This document shows, one piece after another, positions 4,253 to 59,056 of a stretch of DNA of 64,000 bases. The notes beneath the pieces are model-generated. The model made no database searches. It had not been told where the DNA came from and saw only the letters and a program-made list of their open reading frames with translations. Position 1 is the first letter of the stretch. Every line of letters begins with the position of its first letter. Source of the stretch: Hexactinellida sp. DTS-2022 (Eukaryota; Porifera; Hexactinellida); the NCBI GenBank assembly GCA_028753945.1, contig JAPNXP010000006.1:4092001-4156000 (forward strand), written 5' to 3'. The position numbers were made by a program, and so were the translations under genes.

Positions 4253-5480
4253 ATGGCAGCTCGCTATCCCATTCCCCCTCCAGCAGCAGACCCCGTAGAG
4301 ACACGAATAAACAGAGCCATAGACGGCCTCATAGCGCTACTGAATCTCCGCAGAGCTCAGCTGCTGACTCAGGTCCGCGACGCACGCGAGGAGAAGAGAG
4401 CCGCAGAGGTGGCTCGACGAGAAATGGACACACAACTAACCACCGCCCGGACAGCTCTACAGACACTTTTGAAGGAGAACCCCCTTCAGTCCATGCAGGA
4501 GAGAATGGTCTCAGAACTGGACCAGAAAATGAGGGAACTGAGAACGAACATTCCAGCTGAGACAGAATTAAGGTGGCGGTGCGACACACGAGACCTCGAA
4601 GTGAGCATTTCCCGTCTCGGAGAGATTACACAGGTACCAGTAGGGCCCAACTACGCCACATTCCATTTGCCTACTATCGCTACTGGGAAAGAAGGTTCAG
4701 GTCCTGGCGAGTTTAATTGTCCATGTGGTGTCGCCATTAATCGAGCTACAAACCAGATATTCGTAGCTAATTGGGGGCAATGACAGAGTAGAGATATTCT
4801 CCGAAACAGGAGAGTATCTCAATCAGTTAGGTGACATACAGCTAAATAGACCATGGGGCATAGCTATTCATGGGAATAATGTGTATATTAGTAGCGACCT
4901 GAAACACACTGTAAGCAAATACTCGCTAACTGATTTTAGCTTCGTTAAGCGGATTGGGAAGATGGGATCGAATAACGGAGAATTCCAATATCCGAGACAA
5001 CTAACAACAGATCCCAACGGACAAGTGTTCATAGCAGATAGTTATAACGACAGAATCTGTGTATTCGACACAGACTTACACCATTTGAGGAACATCACAC
5101 ATCAGGCATTATCACAACCATATGACGTCAAGCTATCGCATGACTGCGTATACGTACTGTGCCCAAAGAAGAATCCGTGTATGCTGGTACTGTCACTAGA
5201 GGGAGACATGCTACACTCCATCATTAGCTGTGGAGAAGGAATGGATGTGTTGAGGCCATTGTTCTTCTGTTTGGACACAAATAACAACATTGTCATTAGT
5301 GATCTAGGCATACACTCCATTCGAGTATTCTCCCCAGCAGGCAACCTCCTACACACCATAGGAAGAGAGGGAGACGAACAAGGGATACCCTATTTGCCCC
5401 AAGGAATTGCTATAGATACAAACGGGAGATTTGTTTGTTTGTCCCCTAACAAGAATTTTGGTCTACAAATATTTTGTTAG
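4253..5480 (+). CDS. Coiled-coil + NHL-repeat protein, frameshifted
   Basis: Two consecutive frames form one protein of about 408 aa. Residues about 15-110 are Arg/Glu/Gln/Leu-rich and heptad-like (coiled coil). From about residue 130 there are NHL-type beta-propeller blades, with repeats of the pattern GxFxxPxGVAI..(N)..VFVAN..NDRVxxF: for example GEFNCPCGVAI, GEFQYPRQLTT and PYLPQGIAIDTNGRF. The first frame stops just after FVANWG because a run of five G at 4773-4777 is one base longer than the frame needs; with four the next blade reads NDRVEIFSETG. No RING or B-box is present, so this is not a full TRIM2/3/71 protein, although the propeller is of that kind. A single-base sequencing or assembly error, or a young null allele, would explain the break. 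AATAAA lies at 5517. Confidence 0.75.
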
Positions 5481-40883: not shown

Positions 40884-41055
40884 TATTATGACACATTTCA
40901 ATAATGTGATATCTGGAAGATTAGGATTATCGAGGGTGTACTGTAACGAATGTCTTAATTAGCAACAAAACGACTCTCGAAAAATCTCGGAAAGATAACA
41001 CCCACTTAGAAATACTAAATAACATTGCAATATATTAGCAACAAAACATCACAGA

Positions 41056-41769
41056 ATGCAATTGAAGCGTATTATCCGTGTGGAGCTGTACCAGCTAGGA
41101 GACTCCATTAACTGTGTACACATGTGCTACTCCCCATCCGACTCTGTTATACGTCTCAAGCAGAGACTGCAGCTGATCACTGGGATACCAGTCATCTCCC
41201 AGACTCTCTCCATAGCCAGCTATCTCCTATCGGACTCTACTGCGCTACACACTCTGGCTACCCATCGTAATGCTATTCCCACTATACACATGCAGGTGCC
41301 TATAAGGGGAGGGGCGTCTACCTCATCCTGTGGATTCCAACCGTTTACATTCAAAGACGTAACTAAAGAAGAATGCTTTGAAAAAAAGTCTTTTGGAGGA
41401 GGTGCTACATACTATCGTATAATAGGCAAAGGTTTAAGTTTCCAAGCTACCTGCGCTAATCAACAGTGTGAGTCTGTGAGAGCAGGAAGTTGTGTGTATG
41501 TCAGCAAGGGAATGTATCCAGACCAGAGCGGATATGTATCAATCAGGAAAGAAGTTTTCAGGCTAAAGTGTCCAGCTTGTCAAGCGAAAATCCCTGCTGA
41601 AAACTGGACAAATATAGTCTTTGTAGATTGCACTGCGGAAATTGAATGGATTTTGGTAGACGATAGGGAAGGAATAACTACGTTGGTGACTGAAAAAGGG
41701 AAATATACTCAAGCCAAGCAATGTGCTGCTATAATCCAGTATCATGCTTTGGATGTTAAGCTAAAATAA
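41056..41769 (+). CDS. Ubiquitin-like (RGG-ending) + Cys-rich domain protein, copy 1, 237 aa
   Basis: Residues 1-86 read as a ubiquitin-like domain: MQLKRIIRVEL start, SDSV..LKQRLQLITGIPVISQTL in the place of ubiquitin SDTI..VKAKIQDKEGIPPDQQRL, then LLSD.TALHTLA and HMQVPIRGG. The Gly pair at 85-86 matches the ubiquitin C-terminus and is followed by a 150-residue extension, like a ubiquitin-tail fusion precursor. The extension holds a Cys-rich block: Cys133 and Cys138 (CANQQC), KGMYPDQSGYVSIR, Cys172 and Cys175 (CPAC), and Cys192 (FVDC), likely zinc-binding. I do not recognise this domain. Cleavage after GG, or use as a fixed N-terminal ubiquitin-like domain, are both possible. Single exon. 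The 5' 45 bases and the ubiquitin-like part are almost identical to copy 2; the tail is not. Confidence 0.8.
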   Translation: MQLKRIIRVELYQLGDSINCVHMCYSPSDSVIRLKQRLQLITGIPVISQTLSIASYLLSDSTALHTLATHRNAIPTIHMQVPIRGGASTSSCGFQPFTFKDVTKEECFEKKSFGGGATYYRIIGKGLSFQATCANQQCESVRAGSCVYVSKGMYPDQSGYVSIRKEVFRLKCPACQAKIPAENWTNIVFVDCTAEIEWILVDDREGITTLVTEKGKYTQAKQCAAIIQYHALDVKLK

Positions 41770-42641
41770 AAGTTACGTAGTACCTCGAGTACTTTTGAGG
41801 CAGAAATGCAGCATAGTAGTATCTGTAGTAGTGTAAGAGATAAGGAACTTTGTAACTAATTACTGAATAGGTTGTGCACTTGTAGTAAAAGATTATGTAG
41901 CGAGGATTTTGAATACATTGTTGATTGTTTAATTGGATAATATTTGTATTTTTGTTAAAATTCATGGGTTATTTACTGTTATTGAATTTATCAATGTTTT
42001 ATGTGGTATTCTTCAGGAAAATCAGACACCAGTAGCATTTGATTCTGATAACCAGAATTTAGTATTGAAAGGGCCGTTCAAACGTTAAGGAAAGCAAAAT
42101 TCAAGAAGATTAGACACCGTTCTCCTTATTTTAATCTTTAGGCCATTTTATGATACAAAATGAAGATATGTCACGCATTGGTTAAATCCCTAGGAGCATT
42201 GCGTAATGTTTGAAAAAAAAGTAGTACATTTAATTATTACAACCTTAGCAGAATATGTTATTCAATTGAGACTATTATCAGGACACAGTTCCAAATTTGG
42301 TCATAACTTACAAGTTATATCAAAGAATCATATTACAGTCAATATGCTTACACTTTTCAGTTAAGTTGTATACCGGTTAGAGTAAATTAATTAATTAGTA
42401 TTTGTAACAACATAATATTTGTTGCATTTTTGTTGGTATTGTTCGTAACAATTCTTTAACATTCAAATTGTGTTAAGTAATCATGTATTTATGGACTGTT
42501 AAAAATAAATTGTTAGGAGCGCAAAAACAAGGACAATTTAGTTCAATAAAATGTCAATTAAGTGTCAATAAAATAAAACATTAACCAAAAAGTTATAATA
42601 CTAAATAACATTGCATTAAATTAGCAACAACACAACACAGA
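41770..42641. other. Spacer between the UBL copies
   Basis: Family H copy at about 42072-42215; otherwise AT-rich. The final 45 bases (cattgcattaaattagcaac...) repeat the sequence upstream of copy 1, so they likely carry the promoter or 5' UTR. Confidence 0.5.
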
Positions 42642-43361
42642 ATGCAATTGAAGCGCATTATCCGTGTGGAGCTGTACCAGCTAGGAGACTCCATTAACTG
42701 TGTACACATGTGCTACTCCCCATCCGACTCTGTTATAAGTATCAAGCAGAGACTGCAGCTGATCACTGGGATACCAGTTCTCTCCCAGACTCTCTCCAAA
42801 GCCAGCTATCTCCTATCGGACTCTACTGCGCTACACACTCTGGCTACCCATCGTAATGCTATTCCCACTATACACATGCAGGTGCCTATAAGGGGAGGGG
42901 CGTCCAATTCAGATCTACCAATCGCTCCTTTTGATTTCAAAGATATAACAAGGAAAGAGTGTTTCGAAAAGTGCTCATTTTCATCTTCAGCCCATGGCTA
43001 TAATATTATCGATACGGGGATTAACTTTGAAGCCCAATGTTCTAACCAAAATTGCATATCTGTAAAGGAGAATAGGAGAGTTGATATTCAAAAAGGAATG
43101 TACACTAAGCGAGGTGGGTATATGTCTATCAGGACTGAATTATTTAAAATGGTGTGTCCCGCGTGCGGTTGGGAAATTCCACCAGAAAATTGGACAAATT
43201 TAGTATTCACAGATTGCACTGCAGAAATTGAATGGGTCTTAGCTGACAGATGTAGAACTAAAGGAAAGTTAACACTGATAACTGGGAAAGGAGAGTTTAA
43301 ACAGGGAAAATCCAATGTTGGGATAATTAGTTATCATGTATTGGATGTCAGTCTTAAATAA
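42642..43361 (+). CDS. Ubiquitin-like (RGG-ending) + Cys-rich domain protein, copy 2, 239 aa
   Basis: Same plan as copy 1. The ubiquitin-like domain differs at only a few codons (for example VIRLK to VISIK, PVISQTLSIA to PVLSQTLSKA) and again ends VPIRGG. The Cys-rich extension diverges: CSNQNC, KGMYTKRGGYMSIR, CPAC, FTDC, ending ISYHVLDVSLK. The conserved skeleton C-x4-C ... KGMY...GY.SIR...F...CPAC...IP.ENWTN.VF.DCTAEIEW shows that the extension is one domain. The sharp step from near identity to moderate identity occurs right after the codons for RGGAS. It is read in the same direction as copy 1, 872 bases downstream. Confidence 0.8.
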   Translation: MQLKRIIRVELYQLGDSINCVHMCYSPSDSVISIKQRLQLITGIPVLSQTLSKASYLLSDSTALHTLATHRNAIPTIHMQVPIRGGASNSDLPIAPFDFKDITRKECFEKCSFSSSAHGYNIIDTGINFEAQCSNQNCISVKENRRVDIQKGMYTKRGGYMSIRTELFKMVCPACGWEIPPENWTNLVFTDCTAEIEWVLADRCRTKGKLTLITGKGEFKQGKSNVGIISYHVLDVSLK

Positions 43362-43801: not shown

Positions 43802-44851
43802 ATGGCAGAAAAACAAGCCTCTAACTATGGTGGGAAAGAAAGCAACGGAGGAAGCAAAAATAAAGAAAATATAGAAAAATTTGAAAAATCAAATCATGAT
43901 TTTTGGAATGAGTACAGTTCAAAATACGAAGATAGAAGTTATACAAATTGTAAGCCGTTAACAAGTTTTAATCCGTCAAATCAGTATGAATATTATCTCA
44001 ATCCAAACACTGGAAACTCATCAGTTGGTACGGAGCTTTTAAAAAAAATGGACTCGAGAAAAAGTATGGATAATTATGGCCAACAGTGTGAAGTTGCGAT
44101 ATATCAAATTCCTAACATGCAAGCATTTCAATATAATCAACAGTCTCAATATGACGAACGCTCTAAATTTCAGCAGCAAAATCTATGTATGAAAGAGATT
44201 CAACCTAAATCAAAGAGTACATCATACGTGCGTTCATTTATTGATTGGGGCAACAATTATTTTGGGTCGCCTACACAACCGGAGTTAAAACAACATGAAG
44301 TTAATCAAGAATCCGTGGCTAAGAAAGTTCACAAGAAACTCCATGCAATTGTGTACAAACCGAACTTCATTAGAGAGAGGGTAAGACAAGGGGTAGAACT
44401 GTTTAACCTATTAGAGAAGTGTCATACAAGCTGTGAATTCAAAATAGGATTCATTTCAGTTAAATATAATTGGACAGAAACACACCTTAAAATAGAACGT
44501 GGATTAAATATCTTGGCCACTTGCAAGAATATCGATTGTACTTTACATTTGAAGGGCATTGTTTGTCCGAGAGGACGTTTCGTAGATAGAAATGGCTACT
44601 GTACCTTGGATATGCAACTATTCAAAGTTATTTGTCCCAAGTGCAAACTGAGCATTACACCAGATGAGTCATTTGGATTTGGGTTCTATGATTGTAGTTT
44701 TGAACTAACTTATAAATTAGTTAACCAACAAGAATATCGAACAAATGTAGAAGGACATTCCGGGGTATTCTACTTTGGGAAATTTTGTCCTTTCATGGAG
44801 AAGTTTCTTTTTTTGGAAGCTCAAATTGCAATTCTGAGTGGATTGCTATAG
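43802..44851 (+). CDS. Cys-rich domain protein with Asn/Gln-rich N-terminus, 349 aa
   Basis: The C-terminal third (about 215-345) has the same domain as the UBL genes: GLNILATCKNIDC, then CPRGRFVDRNGYCTLDMQLFKVICPKC, then GFYDCSFEL. The first ~190 residues are hydrophilic and rich in Asn, Gln, Ser and Tyr, with no ubiquitin-like fold; Tyr-rich, low-complexity and probably disordered. It shares with its neighbour (45419) the extra Cys in the CPRG box and the motif NWTETHLKI / DWTDTHLQV, so these two form a subfamily. Single exon. Function unknown. Confidence 0.65.
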   Translation: MAEKQASNYGGKESNGGSKNKENIEKFEKSNHDFWNEYSSKYEDRSYTNCKPLTSFNPSNQYEYYLNPNTGNSSVGTELLKKMDSRKSMDNYGQQCEVAIYQIPNMQAFQYNQQSQYDERSKFQQQNLCMKEIQPKSKSTSYVRSFIDWGNNYFGSPTQPELKQHEVNQESVAKKVHKKLHAIVYKPNFIRERVRQGVELFNLLEKCHTSCEFKIGFISVKYNWTETHLKIERGLNILATCKNIDCTLHLKGIVCPRGRFVDRNGYCTLDMQLFKVICPKCKLSITPDESFGFGFYDCSFELTYKLVNQQEYRTNVEGHSGVFYFGKFCPFMEKFLFLEAQIAILSGLL

Positions 44852-45375: not shown

Positions 45376-45418
45376 TATAATTAAACTGTACTATAATAGT
45401 AACATCTAACGAGTACTA

Positions 45419-46162
45419 ATGTCGTTACGTCACGAGAGAACACCCAGAAGGAAAAAGAGAAATACTAATGGGGTTCAGCCATATAATGTGAGACAACGAT
45501 CTCCATTGTATACAGATCCTGTTGCCGTAATTCCTTTAAAAAGATGTAAATTCACACTGACTAGCAGCGAAATTAAACCCATTACAGATACAGCGTATTT
45601 ATCTCACTTAAAAAGCCCTGTTTTGCCGCACATTGAGCTATTTGGCATGAACAGAACTTATAATAGTTTGGATTCAGTTAAGCCAGGAGATATAGTTATA
45701 CCAGATAAAGATAGGTTATTCGATTCACTAGGTGAGACTGACATCACGTACAAATCGGGCTACAAACAAATTCAAGTTGACTGGACAGACACACATCTAC
45801 AGGTAACTCCAGGGGTTAACCTGTTAGTCACTTGCAAGAACGACCTTTGCAAATTCTATTTGAAGAATGTAATTTGTCCGAGAGGGTTATATCCGGATAG
45901 AAAAGGGTACTGTCCGATGGACCGAGAAATGTTTATGATAAAATGTCCGATTTGCAAACTCCCAATTAGACCGGATGCCTCTGTTGGCATAGGATTCTAC
46001 AAATGCGAGTTTCAGGTATCCTACATGCTGAAGAGGGATAATAGCAAAGTTAAGCTTAGAGCTATAGGAGATACCCTGGTATACGCCAAGTTTGGAAAAG
46101 CTAACAATGAAAAGTTTCTATATCTCGATGTCAATGTTGAGGCGAACATAAGTTGGGATTAG
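45419..46162 (+). CDS. Cys-rich domain protein, 247 aa
   Basis: Short basic N-terminus (RTPRRKKRNT) then about 90 residues without known motif, then the shared domain: VDWTDTHLQVTPGVNLLVTC...C, CPRGLYPDRKGYCPMD, CPICKLPIRPDAS and GFYKCEF. The domain end EKFLYLDVNVEANI parallels EKFLFLEAQIAIL of the upstream gene. It lacks a ubiquitin-like domain. The basic lead could direct it to nucleus or RNA; that is a guess. Single exon. Unknown function. Confidence 0.65.
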   Translation: MSLRHERTPRRKKRNTNGVQPYNVRQRSPLYTDPVAVIPLKRCKFTLTSSEIKPITDTAYLSHLKSPVLPHIELFGMNRTYNSLDSVKPGDIVIPDKDRLFDSLGETDITYKSGYKQIQVDWTDTHLQVTPGVNLLVTCKNDLCKFYLKNVICPRGLYPDRKGYCPMDREMFMIKCPICKLPIRPDASVGIGFYKCEFQVSYMLKRDNSKVKLRAIGDTLVYAKFGKANNEKFLYLDVNVEANISWD

Positions 46163-47961: not shown

Positions 47962-49625
47962 TTATTTAATCAGGAGTCCGTTACACAGCGGGTCCCCAGA
48001 CTCACAAGAGAACCGACACACCCCCGAATAGAACCCCTGTCCGGACACCTCCACCACGAGGCCCCTATTCCCCCCGCTGTACTCAGTCTCTCTGAGAGCT
48101 CTGGCGGAGAAGGCACCCCCAGAGGGACCGGAGAATGTCCGCACCTGTCCCAGCTCCAGTTTGTGTTTGTAGAACTGAATAGCCATGCGGGCTGTGACGC
48201 CTGAACCACAGGGGCTACGGTCAACCTATACAGGGAATTCAATGCAGATACTAATGGGTCGTTATAACGTTATGTAACTCTTTAGGGGTATACAGTAGAA
48301 CTCGGTTCGTACGTACCCCCTTGGGAGAAAAAATCCAAGTGTACGTACTAACTGTTGACAATACATAGAGATACATAAAGATTCACAAACTTTGTTTATA
48401 CAAGTTAGAACGTACTAACAGAGTTCTACTGTATATAAATTGTCACTCTGTGTTACATAACGTAAGAAGGCCCTTAGGCTATACAGTAGATACCGGTTAT
48501 AAGAACATTCTACTCGAAGACGGTTGCCATATACCATATAATTTATCTCGGTTATAACATTATATGCAGTTCCCGACGATGTGCTTATAACCGGCATCCA
48601 CTGTACAAATTCTGTGTATACAGACCTGAGAGTCTGCGAATACACAGAACCCAGCAAACTCCGTATCTGCACTAGTATCCCTATCGTCTATAAGGATTGT
48701 ACCGTACAGAAATGCTAGCTCGGGGGACTCCGGATGTTGCAACACGATTTCCTTTCTCACAGCTTCGCTGCAACATGTCCCAGCGGACCTCAAACTCTCG
48801 AAAGGAGAACTCTGCAGATCCAAACCGAACTGCTTAGCAGAAGCAAACGCATAGAAAGCCCCTCCATAGGCTACGTCATAGCGTATAGTCCCGTAGCCAG
48901 CCAGCTCTACTTGCAAGTCTCGCGCGAATACAAACGCCGGTACTGACTCGAAACGAGCAGCACCGGATATACCATCGGAATACTTAACAAACACTGTTAT
49001 GAGACCGCATGGACACTGTATGTTAACACGAGTCTCGGGAGCTACGGGGGCTACTATACCGTAGTCGAGAGCGTATCTGCCTAGGGATATGATAGCGTGT
49101 CCACACATTGTAGAGTAGCCTGTAGACAATGTGTTGTATAAGTCAGTAGAACCTCGTTAGTAGGAATACGGGTACATAATACGAATCTCAGGTTAGTACA
49201 AAGACAATTTTTTGACCCTTCAAAGGATTTCAATACAAATTACACAGGTTAAAATAATTTCGGATAAGGCCATCAAATTTTGACTGTCCCCTGTTGTTCG
49301 TACTAACGAAGTTCTACTGTATAAGAACCGAACCTTTATTATCCATGAATAGAACTGCCATATCTGCATCTGAGTTGTCTGTGGCTACTGGAATAACTCC
49401 ATACATAGAGCTACTGCCTCTCGGTTCGTGCATAAGTCGAGTTCTCAAATGATCCAAGTGCTCACTAACGAATCTCCGCTTATCCAAGATAGTACTGCCC
49501 TCAATACTGGGATATCCGGATCTTATAATGCGTACGGGCTCGCAACATGTGTGCATTTCTATGGTCACTATTGGTTGCTGTCCAGGGGGTGTTTGTATTT
49601 CCAACCAGTTAGTACCTGTAGCCAT
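47962..49625 (-). CDS. Proline racemase / hydroxyproline dehydratase family enzyme, stand-alone copy, 349 aa
   Basis: Exons 49625-49334, 49119-48626, 48225-47962; phases 1 and 0; CDS 1050 nt. The start MATGTNW is chosen because the longer frame runs into a MITE. Family features: VTIEMHTCCEPVRII near the N-terminus, LDKRRFVSEHLDHLR.RLMHEPRG, Cys103 in TMCGHAIISLGRYALDYG, and Cys268 in VDRSPCGSGVTARMAI. Overall sequence and length (human L3HYPDH about 354 aa) match trans-L-3-hydroxyproline dehydratase. That enzyme has Thr at the second catalytic position, whereas this protein keeps Cys as in proline racemase and 4-hydroxyproline 2-epimerase. A cofactor-free two-Cys racemase/epimerase is therefore predicted. 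Intron 1 is 214 bases, 176 of them a family A element. Confidence 0.88.
48484..48603. mobile_element. MITE family C in intron 2 of the stand-alone racemase
   Basis: CAGTAGATACCGGTTATAAG to ggcatccactg; it ends 22 bases from the exon-2 donor. A family H-like end (cgttataacgttatgtaac) and a family A-like fragment lie in the same intron. Confidence 0.75.
49144..49319. mobile_element. MITE family A filling intron 1 of the stand-alone racemase
   Basis: CAGTAGAACCTCGTTAGTAG to cgaagttctactg, 176 of the 214 intron bases; TA on the right. Confidence 0.8.
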
Positions 49626-51182: not shown

Positions 51183-54100
51183 TTATTTCAAATATATTCC
51201 ATTAGAAAGTGAGTCATCCTTTTCAAAGCTAAACTTGCTCTCACCAGTATAAAACCCCTGTCCGGTCACTTCCACTACGACACCGTTTCTATCACCACGC
51301 GTCTCTTCTCGCAGAGCCCGCCCTGTGAAGAAACCGCCGGAGGGTCCGCGGAAAGTGCGCAGGTCTCCCAGCTGAGTAGCGCGCTTGTAGTACTGCAGAG
51401 CTATGCGGGCAGTGACGCCACTGCCGCAGGGACCGCGAGCAACCTACGGACATTGTATGGTTATACACACTGGGATATAGTTAGGTTATACACACTGGGA
51501 CATTGTATGGTTATACACATTGGGATAGTTAGGTTATACTAGTTGGGAATAGTTAGGTTATACCAATTGTAGTTATGGTAATACGAATTGGAATAGTTAG
51601 GTTATATTAATTGAGGATAGTTAAGTTATACACATTAGGATAGTTAGGTTATATCAGTTGGGAATAGTTAGGTTATAACATTGTAGTAATTGTAATACCC
51701 ATTGGGATACGTAGTTAGGTTATTCACAGCTTTCAAACATGTACTGTAGTTGTATTTGCAAACCAATGCTATGAGATAATTATATAACTCATTAATAGTA
51801 AGAAATTTAACGGATATTTAAGTCCCATAAAACTATAAAAATATGACTCACCTGTCCGTCATGTGAAATACAAATATTCGCAGACACATTCTCTGGGTTC
51901 AACTCGTTGTCATCCACAAGAATAACACCTGCTAGATACCCCAAATCCGGTTCCTCTTGATGTTCTATTTTAACATTTCTTATAACCGCTTGAGCTAGTG
52001 CTACTCCAGCAGCTGATAAAGCAGAAATCGACGAATGTTTTAAATCCAATTCAAACTGGCTTGCAGTTGCTATTGCATAGTAAACGCCTCCAAATGCAAT
52101 ATCGTAACGGATTATACCGTATGTATCAAGCTGTATTTCTAAATCCTCAGCGTAAACAAATGCCGGTACTGAATGGAAGCGAACTCGACCGGATTTTCCA
52201 TTTGAATATTCAACAAATACTTTGACTAAACCGCATGGACATTGAATATTGATCTTTGTCTCTGGTGATTGAGGTTTAACTAGTTTGTAGTCTATCGCGT
52301 ATCTTCCGACCGAAATAATGCAATGGCCGCACATTGTATTATATCCTATAGGAATAAATGCATAACAATTGTAACTAGTACAGTATAACCTCGTTAATAC
52401 GAACACCAACGGACGGTCTAAATAACCATATTTGTTCGCTTTATCAAGAGTTCGTATTAACCGGAGTAATACCAATTAACTAGCCATTGTAGGGACCTGG
52501 TTTTGTGAAATTATATGTACGTTTTATCCGGAAATTCGTATTACCCATGTTCGTAGTAACGAGGTTCTACTATATGTATATAGTATATTCTAATAAATTC
52601 GTATTAACCAGGTGACATTATTGTTGAGCCGCAACAGGTGCTTGTAGGTCGAATAATTTGCATTCTTGCGTTATAGAAACAGTTTGTTTGCATAGGAATG
52701 TTATATCAATTGAAATGGTAAGTCATAGATAATAATTATACGGCTGGGCCAACGAATAATGTCAGCTGAATTGTGGATATATAGTGTTTTTGAGGTTAAC
52801 TCATTTTGAATGTATTTACGTAGGTTTCTATATATCGTGGCCGCAATTTGAAATTTAGAATAAACAAATAAGAAAGTGAATTAAATCTAATACTTTCTGC
52901 AAATCCCGAATTATCATCATGATAACTAGCAACATTTTGTGATATTTTATTTAATTTTAATGGTTTAATCTGTAATTTCTATTAAGATGAATACTAAATG
53001 CGTTAATTATAATCTGCTTATAACGAATATCCTGATATAACAAAGGGATATACAGGTCCCAAGCACTTCGTTATAACGAGTGTTAACTGACCCCTAGCTA
53101 TACATATACATACAAGTGACTCCGGTTAATACGAACATATTAAGACGGAGAAGGTACTGTATCATAAATTGTAAGACAATGTTTGTTGTTGTTTATGTGT
53201 TTGTTTGTTTAGTTAAGTTGTAGTATAAAGCATGGTTTGTAAACTAACCAGAGCTATCCATGAATAGCACTGCTATGTCAGCCTCAGTATTATCAGCTGT
53301 CACTGGCAATACGCCCCACATATCTTTATGGCCTCGCGGCTCTAGAATTAGACGACTGCGGAAAGTATCAAAATGTTCCTGTAAATAGCGACGCTTGTCT
53401 AGAATGGAGTTTCCTATAATATCTGGGAAACCGGAAGTGACTATTCTAACTGGATCTCCGCAAGTGTGCATATCTACGGTGGAAATGGTTGTTATGCTGT
53501 CAGAGCTCTGTGGCGTGTTGTTGTTGTTGTGAGATGGAGAGCGACGCTTTTTGCAAGGAATATCTACATACAGGAGTTAATGAATAGATGTTTCTTCTAA
53601 TTCATTTGCTAATTTCAAGTGTTATGCAGAATTTCTCATATTCGTTAATCACCGTACAGTTGAAACCGTTTTTTCTAACCATTTCTTTTCAGAAAAAATA
53701 GTAAGAAAAAAACTGATAGTTAGAAAAAACCGATGAAAAATACTAGTAAAGTTGGAATTTCTGACAAAAGTTAGAATAAACCGGATTCGACTGTATTTCC
53801 ACGAATAAGCCCCGGGTCAAAACATGCATAGTATGATGGCATTATTATAATTAGTTTATATTGAATTGTAAAAACAATGATTTAAGCATTTTCAGTATGA
53901 TTACTGTCGCTGGGAACCATTAGAGTCCATCTAATTATTATTTTCTTGATTTAGCAAAAAAATTGTGGCTAAATTTGGGCCACGAAAGCAATTATCATCG
54001 GGGCGCTTATTCGGGGAAATCGGTAACCCACACTTTGTTTATGGCATTCATGGATTGTATAGCTTTTCTCAAGTATTCGCAACAAGTTTTATAGCATAAT

Positions 54101-57100
54101 ACAGTGAACTGCCGTTTTAACGAAGTCAGATACAACGAAGGAAATTACAGGTCACAAGCACTTCGTTTTAAATAGAGTTGATTAACTGTATTATATATTT
54201 TCAAATGAGCTACTTTTGCTACCCCGTATAACCTTTTTTCTAACTTTATTTCCATGCAAGAATTGGGTCATGCAAGAATTAGCTGCCTACCTTGATGAGC
54301 TGAGTTGTCATGCGGCCGTTTCTGTGTAGGAATATCAACTTCCAACTCTGCATTCTGTTTAAAGAAATTCTCCGTCTTTAAGTACTGACAGAGACTCAGG
54401 TTCTGTCTCAAGGTGTTGTTGCTTATAGATACCACTTCCGGTCTTATGTATTGCTGTGTTGCGGCTATATATTAAGTGATAAAATAATTTGATACTATAC
54501 AGGCACCATTGCACAGTATAACCTCTTAATACGAACACGGTTATACGAACACTATTTCAGTCATATTCAAAGCCTTCTCAATACAAATGATATTGTTTTA
54601 TAGGAATTCCGGATATGGTGAACGCGTTATGACAGTCCCCTCATGTTCGTACAGTATCTTATTATTGATATTTTCGGTTATTTTTCTTTAAAATATATTG
54701 GTTTATGCAATGGGTATTTTATATCATGGTTTATAGTGTTTCATAGAGGCCCTTGATTTGTGTGCGTCCACATTAATTAATTAATTAGCTCTGGGATGTT
54801 CTTGTATAAGATTAGAAAGAATACGAATATAACAACACACTTACCGTCAGAGCTTATCAAGTACGGGGTTGCTTTCAAAGGTGCCTGCAGTGGGTAAGGC
54901 AGCGTAGGCGTGTTAGGCATAGCGACGATGCCTATGGTGCGGTATGGGTTAGCAGGAGAGGCTATCGAGGGAGAGGGAATGGCCTGTCTGAGGGTGGAGC
55001 TGCAGGGTATCTCAAGACCAGAGCCATTCGGGAGCTAAACACAGGAATATACAGTAGATACCGGATATAGGAACATACCGGATATAAGAACACTGGTTAT
55101 ATGAACACTGGTTATATGAACAATGGTTACAAGAACATCAGGATATACTAATTCATACTTACAATAATTCCCTGGTTATATTGCTAAATCCCTGGATTTT
55201 GGGATTTGCATTCCAGAACAACATTATTTGCAAATTTTGTACTCATATTGGAAATTCAAATCAATCAAATGGTCAAATCCCTGCAAGTTTGCTAGTTTAA
55301 TAGACGATCCAAAAACAGTCCTGGATTCATGAAAATAGCATTCAAATTTCATGCAAAATTATTCCTATAAAATCCAATATAAACCATGTACTTACCTTTT
55401 GTCCAGAGGGCGTAGAAGGGAGCGAGTAGGGGGTGACGGGATGCATTTTCTTCTTATAGGGGGAATTAGAGGGGAATATAAGGGACAGCCCGGTTATATC
55501 GTGCTTAGTGTCTACTCTATGTAGAGCAGTAGATGGGGAAGTTAGTATAGAGTTTATTTTAGTGTTCGATGGGTCGAATGGGATCGGGGTTAGGGGGGAG
55601 AGATGGGAGTTTGCTACAGTGCCTGGCATTACAATGTAGCTTCTGTTGAACTGTAGTGTGGGGCTGTTAGGCGTTAGTTCTTGCGAGTTCTCAAAAGCGG
55701 TGAGACTGTTGAGCTTCTAAATTAAACGAATTTAAAGCAAACTTATAATCAGGGTCGATTGAGAGACTTTATAATATGCAAACTCAACTTAATACAAACC
55801 CTATGTAAGTTGTAAAATTGGGACCATATGGCTTGTTCATAATTAAAAAAAACCTACACGAAAAATTGTTCACAATAAGCAGACCTGACTGCTGTAATGT
55901 GTGAAATACCACATTTTTGTATTACAGAAATGACAAAATCTAATATTCGTGAATTTTCGTTACATAACGTTGTAACTACAGAGTGGGTACTTACAGCAGT
56001 CACTGATTGCTGGGAACTCAAAGACTCGGTCTGTGAGGTTATGTGGAGCTGAGGCTGAGAATTTGCACTGTAATTCGGGAAAATATCAGATGTTAGAGTT
56101 TTGACAGAATCGTCGTAATTGCAGCTACTGAGCTCATCTGGAGTTTCCGAGTTTGGCTTTGGAAATCCGGGAATTTGTGTTGGAACCTGCGGATATTCCT
56201 TACAAGGCGTATCTACTGTGCCGTCTGTTAGCTCGTATACCCTGTGGCCCCTTATGTAGATGTCTTTTCGCTCTTTTATGCCGCGAACTGAGTACAGGGC
56301 ACAGCTATAGAAATATGTAGGCTGAAACGAATATTCGAACGTTTTGATAACTAAGCAATAATTTATTATTAAATAAAATTCAGACTCAAAATACAGTGGA
56401 AAATAGATTTTTGCAGCACTAGAAATATGCATAAATTAATTCGTGTGAATATAATTAAGATAATTTATGTAAATAGTCTCTTCACTACCCTTTGAATTGG
56501 AATTCCTAAAAATGTGAGACAAATTAATTAATCGGATAGATACTTAATCTAATTAAAGAAAACCTCAAATAAATTAACACTAATTTATTATTGTATTTCA
56601 CCAAGTTGCATCAAAACTTCTATTATAATGCAGAAACCCTATTCCAATACCACTTATGATCTTAGATATGGACGAACTGAAAGGATTTTAAATTCAACAA
56701 CCACGTATATTTTAGATTAAAATAAATTTACATATGAATACAAAAAATTAGAAAAGTATTTATCAACCGACCGGAAGTTAAGTTTCCAGTTGATTGGGTT
56801 CGCTTCGCTCTTTCTATGTTTTCCGGAATAAGACGCCCATTCCTTATAAAGCGCAGCATCTTTGTCCATACAGTAAGTTTTCTCTCTCGCGTGTTTCCAA
56901 GGAACTGAGAAAAGTGTTTTTTCAATTGAGAGCCATTTAAGGCCTTCGTATCTTCCTGAATTTATTTGTTCTACAAGCCATTCTTTCAGTCGTCGTTTTC
57001 CTGTGGATAGCACGTGGTAAAATTGCATTTGTTCAAAAATGAGATATGTTATAATGTTCCAGAGATTGAATAATCATTAAATGTAGGCGACTAAGTTCTA

Positions 57101-59056
57101 TTGTTTCAGTATGCGTTTGGTAATTTGGAATTGTTTGTTCAAACCAGAAAGGAAATTGCATTATGCAATAATGCAATTAGTTATTGAAAGTATTGAGTCA
57201 GGTTTTTAGAAAAAATAGTTTCTATTATACTCGATTGCGCAAGTATTAGGTAGTTTTATAGAAAAAATCGCTAAATTCATTATTTTCTAGGATAAATAAT
57301 TAATACGCTTTAGTAATGTTAATTTCACAGAAATCATGTTGCAGGCTATTTTAGGGAACTTAGTTATGTTATATGAATCATCCTTTTGTATGCATTATAA
57401 GTTATATTATGAAATACTAGCCTAGTGAATAATTAATATTGAATTAAACTCAATTGCAACAGAAAATAAAATTAAAATTCAGGGAAATTTGAGGGCGCGT
57501 GGACTTGTCTACAACACAGATCAAAAGATTTCAATTAATTGAAACAATGAAAGTTTAATGTTTTGTCACTAAATTCAACGATAACAGTTTCTACTGTATT
57601 GTATTTTCCCCCAAAATAGATATGCAGGTGTAATTATATAATTGAAAGTAACTTTATTGCAAGTGACTTGTAATTTTAAGGAATTTCAGTTTGGCTACAC
57701 TTTGCATTCCTTACATCACAAACATTCCAAAGCAGCCTCACCTCTGCTAAGGAATTGATTATATTGCTTTCTGTTTGGTTAACGAAATAGGAAATATAAC
57801 AGATAATCGATAACGAACATTGTATTCTCCCATTTCCCATAGAACAAGTTACGCAATTGATAGAATCACTACAATTCAGTTTGCATATTTGCAATTCATC
57901 TAATTGCAATATTCCCCTTTAGCCAGTCGCTTTTTCCCAAAGAGAGCATTTAATGTAATTAAATATATTCCTCTAATAGCAATATTAGCATATTTGCTAG
58001 CAAATTTCGTGCAAAACGCGTGTATAGTTAGAACCAAATAACCGCTTATAACGAAATGGATATTAATAAATTTTCTGTATTCTGCATCAAAAAAGGATCG
58101 AGATTAATTGCTAGAATAATTCGACCAGATGACAATCCTAGTTTCCAAAATGATTTATTTGCATTAGTGAGAATGCATTGTTATATCGTATATTATACAG
58201 CCATAACATATGTTCGCGCTCCTGATAATTCCTTTGTTTCCAACAACATATATACGATTTATACTACTGAGAATGCACTGTTATACCTGGAGCTTCTATG
58301 CTAAGGTCTCCCGCTACGAACTCCCCATCGAAGAAGCCGCTATTCAGCAGGTCCAGCTCCTGGCTGACAGGTGGGGACCTGGAGTCCTGAGAGAGAGGGG
58401 ACAGAAGCCCCTTGTCCGAGTCTGAGTAGCCCTCGGGCCGCGGAGAGGGAGACAGGGTGTCGGAGTGACGCTCCTCTTTTGTGTAGAAACCCGGCGTCTC
58501 CAAGCAAATCTACAGTAGTCAGTGTATATTATATACAGTGGATATACAGGAGTAGAATTGAACACTCGTAAGGTACTATAGTATGAATTTTGTCGCCTAA
58601 AAGGTTAGTTTTGTATTACTCTATTGGGATTTTCGGAAGTTTCCAAGAAATCCGGAGTCTCCAAGGAAATTTGCAGTATTTAGTGTATCTTGTACAGTGG
58701 ATGCCGGATATAAGAACACCAGTATAATTTATGCCGGTTATAAGAACATTATACAGTAGAACCTCGTTAATACGAACGGTAAAAATTTGTTCGCTTTATC
58801 CGGAGTTTGTATTAGCCGTGTTCATACTAACGAGGTTCTACTGTATAATGTTCTTATAACCGGCATGTTCTTATAACCGGTGTTCTTATATCCGGTATTT
58901 ACTGTATTAAATCACAAATATATGTTTGTTTACTTGTTACAATACAACTTATTACAGCGTACATGTAAAGTTAGCAAATATATACGGTACCTTGTCGATT
59001 TCTTCAAATTCCGGACTGATCGTGAGAGGCAGCGGAGAAGTAGTTTCGTTTGTCAT
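51183..59056 (-). CDS. IRF DNA-binding domain fused in frame to a proline-racemase-family domain, 10 exons, 860 aa
   Basis: Exons: 59056-58991, 58509-58287, 57000-56772, 56304-55995, 55716-55396, 55034-54845, 54464-54291, 53563-53249, 52345-51852, 51443-51183; phases 0,1,2,0,0,1,1,1,0; CDS 2583 nt. Residues about 98-200 are an interferon regulatory factor DNA-binding domain with its five tryptophans (104, 119, 131, 151, 168): RRLKEWLVEQINSG, GLKWLS, VPWKHAREK, DAALYKEWASYSGK, NPINWKLNFRCAL, ending HRVYEL. The exon 3/4 junction falls inside NFR|CAL. A Ser/Pro-rich region (about 210-500) follows. Exon 8 opens with DIPCKKRRSPSH (possible NLS) and, from about 528, a full racemase-family fold: TISTVDMHTCGDPVRIV, Cys615 in TMCGHCIISVGRYAIDY and Cys780 in VARGPCGSGVTAR. 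The usual Asp before this second Cys is Ala776. DNA binding plus amino-acid chemistry in one protein is inferred; the fusion junction lacks transcript proof. Confidence 0.65.
51444..51730. repeat. Minisatellite in the last intron of the IRF-racemase gene
   Basis: Ten or so degenerate copies of a unit like gggatagttaggttatacac (20-26 bases), starting next to the last-exon acceptor. Confidence 0.75.
52381..52572. mobile_element. MITE family A in intron 8 of the IRF-racemase gene
   Basis: CAGTATAACCTCGTTAATAC to gaggttctacta; contains a second internal family A-like end, so it may be two overlapping copies. It lies 35 bases upstream of the exon-9 acceptor. The same intron position in the stand-alone racemase also carries a family A copy. 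Confidence 0.7.
52986..53089. mobile_element. MITE family B remnant
   Basis: Right part of family B (ctgcttataacgaatatcct ... cacttcgttataacgagtgt) without a left terminus; intron 8 of the IRF-racemase gene. Confidence 0.6.
53657..53793. mobile_element. MITE family F, complete
   Basis: CAGTTGAAACCGTTTTTTCT to aaccggattcgactg, TA on both sides; intron 7 of the IRF-racemase gene. Confidence 0.8.
54102..54188. mobile_element. MITE family B, short copy
   Basis: CAGTGAACTGCCGTTTTAAC to gagttgattaactg, 87 bp, TA on the right; intron 7 of the IRF-racemase gene. Confidence 0.7.
54246..54251 (-). terminator. Possible alternative poly(A) signal after exon 7
   Basis: On the minus strand, AATAAA lies about 40 bases past the exon-7 donor, and reading through that donor reaches a TGA after eight codons. 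Together they could make a short IRF-only transcript. Such hexamers are common in AT-rich DNA. Confidence 0.3.
54514..54650. mobile_element. MITE family A, incomplete
   Basis: CAGTATAACCTCTTAATACG followed by the usual family blocks; the right end is lost near gttcgtacagtat. Intron 6 of the IRF-racemase gene. Confidence 0.65.
55052..55150. mobile_element. MITE family C, half copy with reiterated end
   Basis: CAGTAGATACCGGATATAGG then four more copies of a gaacactggttatat-like block; no right terminus. Intron 5 of the IRF-racemase gene. Confidence 0.55.
55752..55891. mobile_element. MITE family K remnant
   Basis: Blocks gagagactttataatatgca, aaaccctatgtaagttgtaa and agcagacctgactg in family order; intron 4 of the IRF-racemase gene. 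Confidence 0.65.
57001..58286. other. Large intron 2 of the IRF-racemase gene
   Basis: 1286 bases, AT-rich. Near 57920-58025 a family D remnant (agagagcatttaatgtaatt ... tttgctagcaaatttcgtgc); nothing else is supported. Open frames here have no domain. Confidence 0.5.
58549..58640. mobile_element. Family J element, partial
   Basis: gagtagaattgaacactcgt ... cctaaaaggttagttttgta; inverted relative to 30597-30745. Intron 1 of the IRF-racemase gene. Confidence 0.55.
58695..58904. mobile_element. MITE family C interrupted by family A
   Basis: CAGTGGATGCCGGATATAAG to tccggtatttactg; the middle holds a complete family A copy (58754-58843). The C sequence resumes exactly after the second TA. Confidence 0.8.
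58754..58843. mobile_element. MITE family A nested in family C
   Basis: CAGTAGAACCTCGTTAATAC to aacgaggttctactg, 90 bp, TA on both sides. Confidence 0.85.

Follow-up and report, generated by a model that had tools for sequence, protein, structure and literature searches.

A predicted gene joining an IRF DNA-binding domain to a proline racemase-family domain in a glass sponge genome

The window, a stretch of 64,000 nucleotides of the Hexactinellida sp. DTS-2022 genome (contig C15, positions 4092001-4156000), contains on its minus strand a predicted gene of ten exons that spans positions 59056-51183 (Table 1). Rebuilt by script, the exons join in frame into 2571 nt, encoding 856 residues and a stop codon rather than the 860 codons claimed in an earlier note on this DNA. 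All nine introns have GT...AG ends, and the incoming exon phases are 0-0-1-2-0-0-1-1-1-0. At the junction of exons 7 and 8, codon 501 (GAT) is split across 54291/53563-53562, with exon 7 ending on the G that exon 8, which opens with AT, is missing, as the earlier note had read it. A Pfam scan of the model, with matches reported at E ≤ 1, revealed an IRF domain at residues 96-193 (PF00605; 95 bits over a cut-off of 27, E 4e-27) and a Pro_racemase domain at residues 530-853 (PF05544; 300.8 bits over a cut-off of 27, E 1.5e-89). The latter covers positions 2-324 of the 325-position profile and possesses both Cys611 and Cys776. The third match, DUF3336 (E 0.19), falls below its own cut-off. The proposal of a five-Trp IRF domain at the start, joined without a stop to a complete two-Cys racemase-family domain at the C-terminus, is thus borne out at the level of the gene model. 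Hereafter, the racemase-family part of this model (exons 8-10) is termed copy 1.

Table 1. Positions in the window of the exons, repeats and signals at the IRF-racemase locus.
Feature	Position	Strand	Comment
Exon 1	58991-59056	-	start codon, residues 1-22; aligned with P0001
Exon 2	58287-58497	-	from residue 23; aligned with P0001
Exon 3	56772-57000	-	first part of IRF DNA-binding domain, five Trp; 91% identity to P0001
Exon 4	55995-56304	-	end of IRF domain and start of linker
Exon 5	55396-55716	-	IRF linker; aligned with P0001
Exon 6	54845-55034	-	IRF linker; aligned with P0001
Exon 7	54291-54464	-	last IRF-side exon; donor AAG/GTAGGC, one base left over
Stop codon if exon 7 is unspliced	54268-54270	-	read-through frame
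AATAAA	54245-54250	-	candidate poly(A) signal for an IRF-only transcript, 18 nt past the read-through stop
Intron 7	53564-54290	-	727 nt, largely dispersed repeats
Intron 7 repeat A	54181-54099, some matches to 54211-54087		617 first-look candidates in genome, 40 scored
Intron 7 repeat B	54025-53790		467 first-look candidates in genome, 40 scored
Intron 7 repeat C	53796-53655		527 first-look candidates in genome, 40 scored
Exon 8	53249-53563	-	racemase N-terminus behind a basic Asn-rich linker; no ATG ahead of Met532
Exon 9	51852-52345	-	racemase domain with MCGH (Cys611)
Exon 10	51183-51443	-	racemase C-terminus with ARGPCGSG (Ala772, Cys776), stop
Copy 2 exon 1	49334-49625	-	own ATG
Copy 2 exon 2	48626-49119	-	
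Copy 2 exon 3	47962-48225	-	intact DRSPCGSG, stop

Elsewhere in the window, four plus-strand open reading frames between 41023 and 46162 (41023-41769, 42609-43361, 43802-44851 and 45410-46162) share, by eye, the Cys-pair pattern ..GY......F...CP.C...I.P.., and in the first two the initial ~100 residues are nearly the same. A Pfam scan of the frames 41023-41769, 43802-44851 and 45410-46162 gave no match. The window ends ~26 kb from the end of the contig, which is 4,182,165 bases long.

The IRF half shares the five-Trp DNA-binding domain of the IRF family and is 60% identical over 96% of its length to P0001, a 507-residue Trinity protein from a EukProt transcriptome that carries the flag 'ORF type:complete'. 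The alignment runs through the linker to the motif ELE[V/I] in exon 7, which supports exons 1-7 of the model; P0001 stops, however, where the window protein may continue into the racemase domain. The IRF association domain (IAD, PF10401) is present in many IRFs but not in all, and hence is not strictly defining. It has no match at E ≤ 1 in the 856-residue model, but its absence is not odd as such, as P0001 also lists PF00605 only. A genome search with P0001 gave five pieces at this locus and, besides them, a single further IRF domain on contig C18 (L009, ORF 4498-5247), in which the whole DNA-binding domain sits in one open frame, compared to two exons in the window gene.

If exon 7 is left unspliced, its frame ends seven codons into intron 7 and gives an IRF-only protein of 507 residues, with an AATAAA shortly behind the stop. 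By chance, intron 7 should contain about one AATAAA, and the 45 nt after the read-through stop contain the motif in 4.8% of shuffles. The distance from the ELE motif to the protein end is 24 residues in P0001 (ELEI) and 22 in the unspliced form (ELEV); the shuffle figure above applies to the AATAAA alone. The end of P0001, the position of the read-through stop and the AATAAA together suggest that the ancestral IRF may have ended in intron 7 and make a 507-residue IRF-only isoform a real possibility. The likeness of the P0001 tail to exon 8 and to the exon 7 read-through is not above that of shuffles (0.18-0.43).

Behind copy 1 lies a second racemase gene on the same strand (copy 2, 49625-47962), which has three exons, starts at an ATG of its own and carries both introns at places matching those of copy 1. 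A PF05544 profile search of the genome returned six exon matches, three in each copy, and the genome searches revealed no racemase gene besides these two and only one further IRF domain. Among the matches listed, the protein nearest to copy 2 is P0112 of Oopsacas minuta (65% identity). A 37-row tree gives copy 1 a long branch (0.88, compared to 0.26 for copy 2) and places it outside copy 2 plus Oopsacas (99/93), although a clade of copies 1 and 2 is not rejected (p-AU 0.074). The duplication thus either predates the Oopsacas split, copy 1 being missing from the Oopsacas proteins seen, or is younger and was followed by fast change of copy 1. Over 325 codons, the two copies differ at 31, 26 and 63% of first, second and third codon positions, and neutral simulations stay free of stops in 1% of cases at 10% change and in 11% at 5% change. 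The codon-position bias and the stop-free frame demonstrate that copy 1 was under past constraint and has not drifted for a long time. Copy 2 and P0112 have Cys at the second catalytic position, where 15 of 120 rows have Cys and 105 have Thr, so that copy 2 looks like the racemase/epimerase type and not the vertebrate dehydratase type.

Copy 1 keeps the whole family domain and both catalytic cysteines, Cys611 in MCGH and Cys776 in the GPCG of motif III. The earlier note speaks of a conserved DMHTCG site; the Cys of that motif is not one of the catalytic pair. In the proline racemase family, motif III reads DRSPCGXGXXAXXA, and Leu127, His132, Asp296 and Phe290 (Trypanosoma cruzi numbering) assist racemisation (PMC1964878). 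Motif III of copy 1 is ARGPCGSGVTARIA, in which the Asp is replaced by Ala and the Ser (Ser298) by Gly. The position of Asp296 is Ala772 in copy 1 and Asp in the other 119 of 120 rows, whereas at that of Phe290 copy 1 has Ser766, and copy 2 and all 118 hits have Phe. Copy 1 therefore lacks the combination of motif III, Asp296 and the racemase Phe290 by which functional racemases and epimerases are recognised. Overall, it departs from 22 of the 119 columns conserved at ≥95%, compared to 12 departures of copy 2 counted on its own columns. The alignment takes 118 of the best 120 matches listed out of 2371, many of them vertebrate, and conservation may be overstated for this reason. The best solved chain for the racemase half is 7qpo, a trans-3-hydroxy-L-proline dehydratase. 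Given that Asp and Phe are lost while both Cys are kept, copy 1 is probably a binding or dimerisation module and not a racemase; its role has probably changed, with the fold and the Cys pair retained and the proline chemistry lost. Of the amino-acid-handling domain suggested before, the racemase-family fold and the two Cys stand, but the handling is doubtful in view of the broken motif III and the lost pocket Phe.

Copy 1 has no evident start of its own. As the earlier note had stated, exon 8 contains no in-frame ATG before DMHTCG and is closed by a stop beyond its acceptor: the first ATG in any frame is at 53471, the Met532 of MHTCG, and the upstream frame is open to 53576. By themselves, these two features are weak pointers, because shuffling the 92 nt ahead of Met532 leaves the fusion frame without a stop in 0.28 of cases and without an in-frame ATG in 0.77; pieces of this length in intron 7 are stop-free in 81 of 635 cases. 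A stronger pointer to an upstream start is provided by residues -5 to -1 of Met532 (ISTVD), each of which is the first or second commonest in its column among 119 rows (118 hits and copy 2). In 118 of these rows, at least seven residues precede the equivalent Met, the exception being P0178, labelled partial. A start of the enzyme at Met532 was rejected as the main reading on these two grounds. With no ATG ahead of Met532 and a family-like ISTVD, the start of copy 1 should lie upstream of exon 8 if it is still translated whole, although ISTVD would also persist if the start had been lost only recently. The claim that exon 8 needs an upstream exon holds under that same proviso, and no convincing other start was found in intron 7.

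The 30 codons from the acceptor to Met532 score 0.083 per codon, at the 68th percentile of 684 held-out coding pieces, and outscore all 183 stop-free pieces from the introns of both genes (median -0.098 for intron and 0.041 for coding pieces). The N-terminus of copy 2 scores 0.049, at the 54th percentile. The frame margin of these 30 codons is 0.026 against a coding median of 0.028, but the margin is positive in only 66% of coding pieces; given this low frame power, base composition carries much of the signal, and GC is 0.46 in the exon 8 segment ahead of Met532 compared to 0.33 in intron 7.

The exon 7 donor scores 6.17 (2.0-10.1 for the ten checked donors) and is equalled or beaten by three of the 34 GTs inside intron 7. 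The exon 8 acceptor scores 8.25 (-1.2 to 10.0 for the checked acceptors), and none of the 28 other AGs of the intron reaches it. With only ten introns in training, these scores are rough. Dispersed repeats fill ~450-500 of the 727 nt of intron 7 and leave ~230-270 nt; the segment 53649-53564 at its end matches only itself in the genome search. The repeats fall into three families of short dispersed elements, each yielding hundreds of first-look candidates genome-wide, and inverted-repeat ends in some, e.g. 53795-53813 / 54002-54020, suggest a MITE-like nature. Copies 1 and 2 are separated by a spacer of 1555 nt, which has repeats at about 370-559 and 1369-1476. It is no fair control for intron 7, because only 40 of its 3459 candidates were scored and, of the introns of the gene, the search covered intron 7 alone. 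A likeness between the end of exon 7 and the start of exon 8 (DIP..KR), considered as an exon duplication, gave shuffle values of 0.0175 (protein) and 0.0315 (DNA); as it was chosen post hoc, no duplication is claimed.

Intron 7 was scanned for an alternative start of the enzyme. Five of its 16 ATGs open at least 23 codons, and these score -0.079 to -0.021 per codon (7th-23rd percentile of coding pieces), which is low yet within the coding range. Three of the 11 shorter mini-ORFs (54051, 53930 and 53920; 9-14 codons) exceed the coding median; the first is without a phase-1 donor, and the other two have poor donors only (1.23 and -2.0). Two ATG exons, 53842-53782 and 53682-53658, have donors matching that of exon 7 (6.48 and 6.18), but both sit inside repeats and score -0.057 and -0.024.

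For a racemase copy that was once constrained, lacks a start and stands in frame behind an IRF, we favour a real IRF-racemase fusion gene, its product perhaps one of two isoforms beside a short IRF, and put its probability at about one half. We infer that the junction 54291/53563 is used, perhaps beside a shorter isoform that has the IRF part only and ends in intron 7.

A serious, though less probable, contender is a pair of separate, tightly packed genes. The IRF would end by read-through of exon 7, and copy 1 would be transcribed apart through an unrecognised first exon, a non-AUG start or a spliced leader at the 53563 acceptor. This accounts for P0001 as a complete IRF-only transcript protein and for the read-through stop and AATAAA, which fit the end of an IRF. 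Trans-splicing has been reported for a glass sponge (PMC10282587 and PMC7986045): predicted leaders occur on 4% of long reads of Aphrocallistes vastus, whose genome is dense, with 12.4% nested genes (PMC10282587). Copy 2 likewise has an AG two bases ahead of its ATG, though this scores poorly (-0.83, within the range of the checked acceptors). A leader carrying an in-frame AUG could provide the start of copy 1. A leader without one, however, gives no start, as translation from the first AUG in exon 8, that of Met532, would cut off ISTVD, and the ATG exons with good donors are the low-scoring, repeat-embedded pair described above. Moreover, PMC7986045 describes operons as unreported in hexactinellids. 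An Rfam scan of the window gave no match; an Rfam SL1 search of the genome also returned none, but is uninformative, since the control genomes were likewise without a match.

Distinctly unlikely is a functionless run-on chimera, in which occasional read-through and splicing join the two genes and copy 1, a duplicate silenced not long ago, has lost its start codon. In A. vastus, run-on transcripts linking neighbouring genes are described at a rate of the order of 1:100, and 332 automatically built models were dismissed as false fusions (PMC10282587). Among the IRF hits, 12 of 107 are bird models named 'dual specificity protein phosphatase 15' that join an IRF domain to a DUSP15-type phosphatase domain, and may be annotation read-through between neighbours; unlike the window gene, they carry a phosphatase and keep the IAD. 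The larger number of departures in copy 1 would also fit a silenced gene. However, over its long branch copy 1 kept its codon-position bias, a stop-free frame and intact introns, which excludes long decay but not recent loss. An assembly or haplotype error joining unrelated pieces is very improbable, as a single 4.18 Mb contig of the 112.4 Mb assembly, which has 18 contigs, carries the exons, the repeats and the tandem copy in order.

In one full-length search with 7994 scored candidates, none of the four hits carried both an IRF and a racemase domain. Among the papers listed in a literature search over titles and abstract openings, with most subscription journals beyond its scope, none shows an IRF-racemase fusion, and the one paper listed for both names concerns Leishmania and T. 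cruzi; 'IRF' and 'interferon' are absent from the main text of the Oopsacas genome paper (PMC10280926). An old fusion should appear elsewhere, given the position of copy 1 outside copy 2 plus Oopsacas. Copy 1 sits behind an IRF domain, whereas among the 120 PF05544 hits listed only P0002, the L3HYPDH isoform X2 of the fish Gouania willdenowi, has another Pfam domain. This is PF13837, a Myb/SANT-type domain, so that P0002 is a second predicted architecture with a DNA-binding-type domain ahead of a racemase-family domain. It differs in being one member sequence and a Thr-type enzyme with the Asp intact.

Under the fusion reading, a racemase-family gene would have been duplicated in tandem beside an IRF gene, and the upstream copy would have lost its own start and been recruited as the 3' part of the IRF gene. 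A splice from 54291 to 53563 would then yield an 856-residue protein with an IRF DNA-binding domain, a long low-complexity linker and a racemase-fold domain. Proline racemase-family dimers have two active sites (PMC1964878). The C-terminal domain may no longer racemise but hold two IRF chains together, and may bind a proline-like ligand in the altered two-Cys pocket, standing in place of the IAD. It is a rather doubtful extension of this scheme that the protein is an immune transcription factor with its own metabolite sensor, in which a racemase-fold pseudoenzyme dimerises the IRF and gates it through a proline-like ligand, e.g. one released as collagen breaks down or bacteria are ingested. 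Should the junction be in use, a conserved regulator of innate immunity would have acquired a C-terminus derived from an enzyme, whose unfused sister still lies next door for direct comparison. The locus would then be a clean case of domain capture through tandem duplication and start loss, and its product a candidate ligand-gated IRF.
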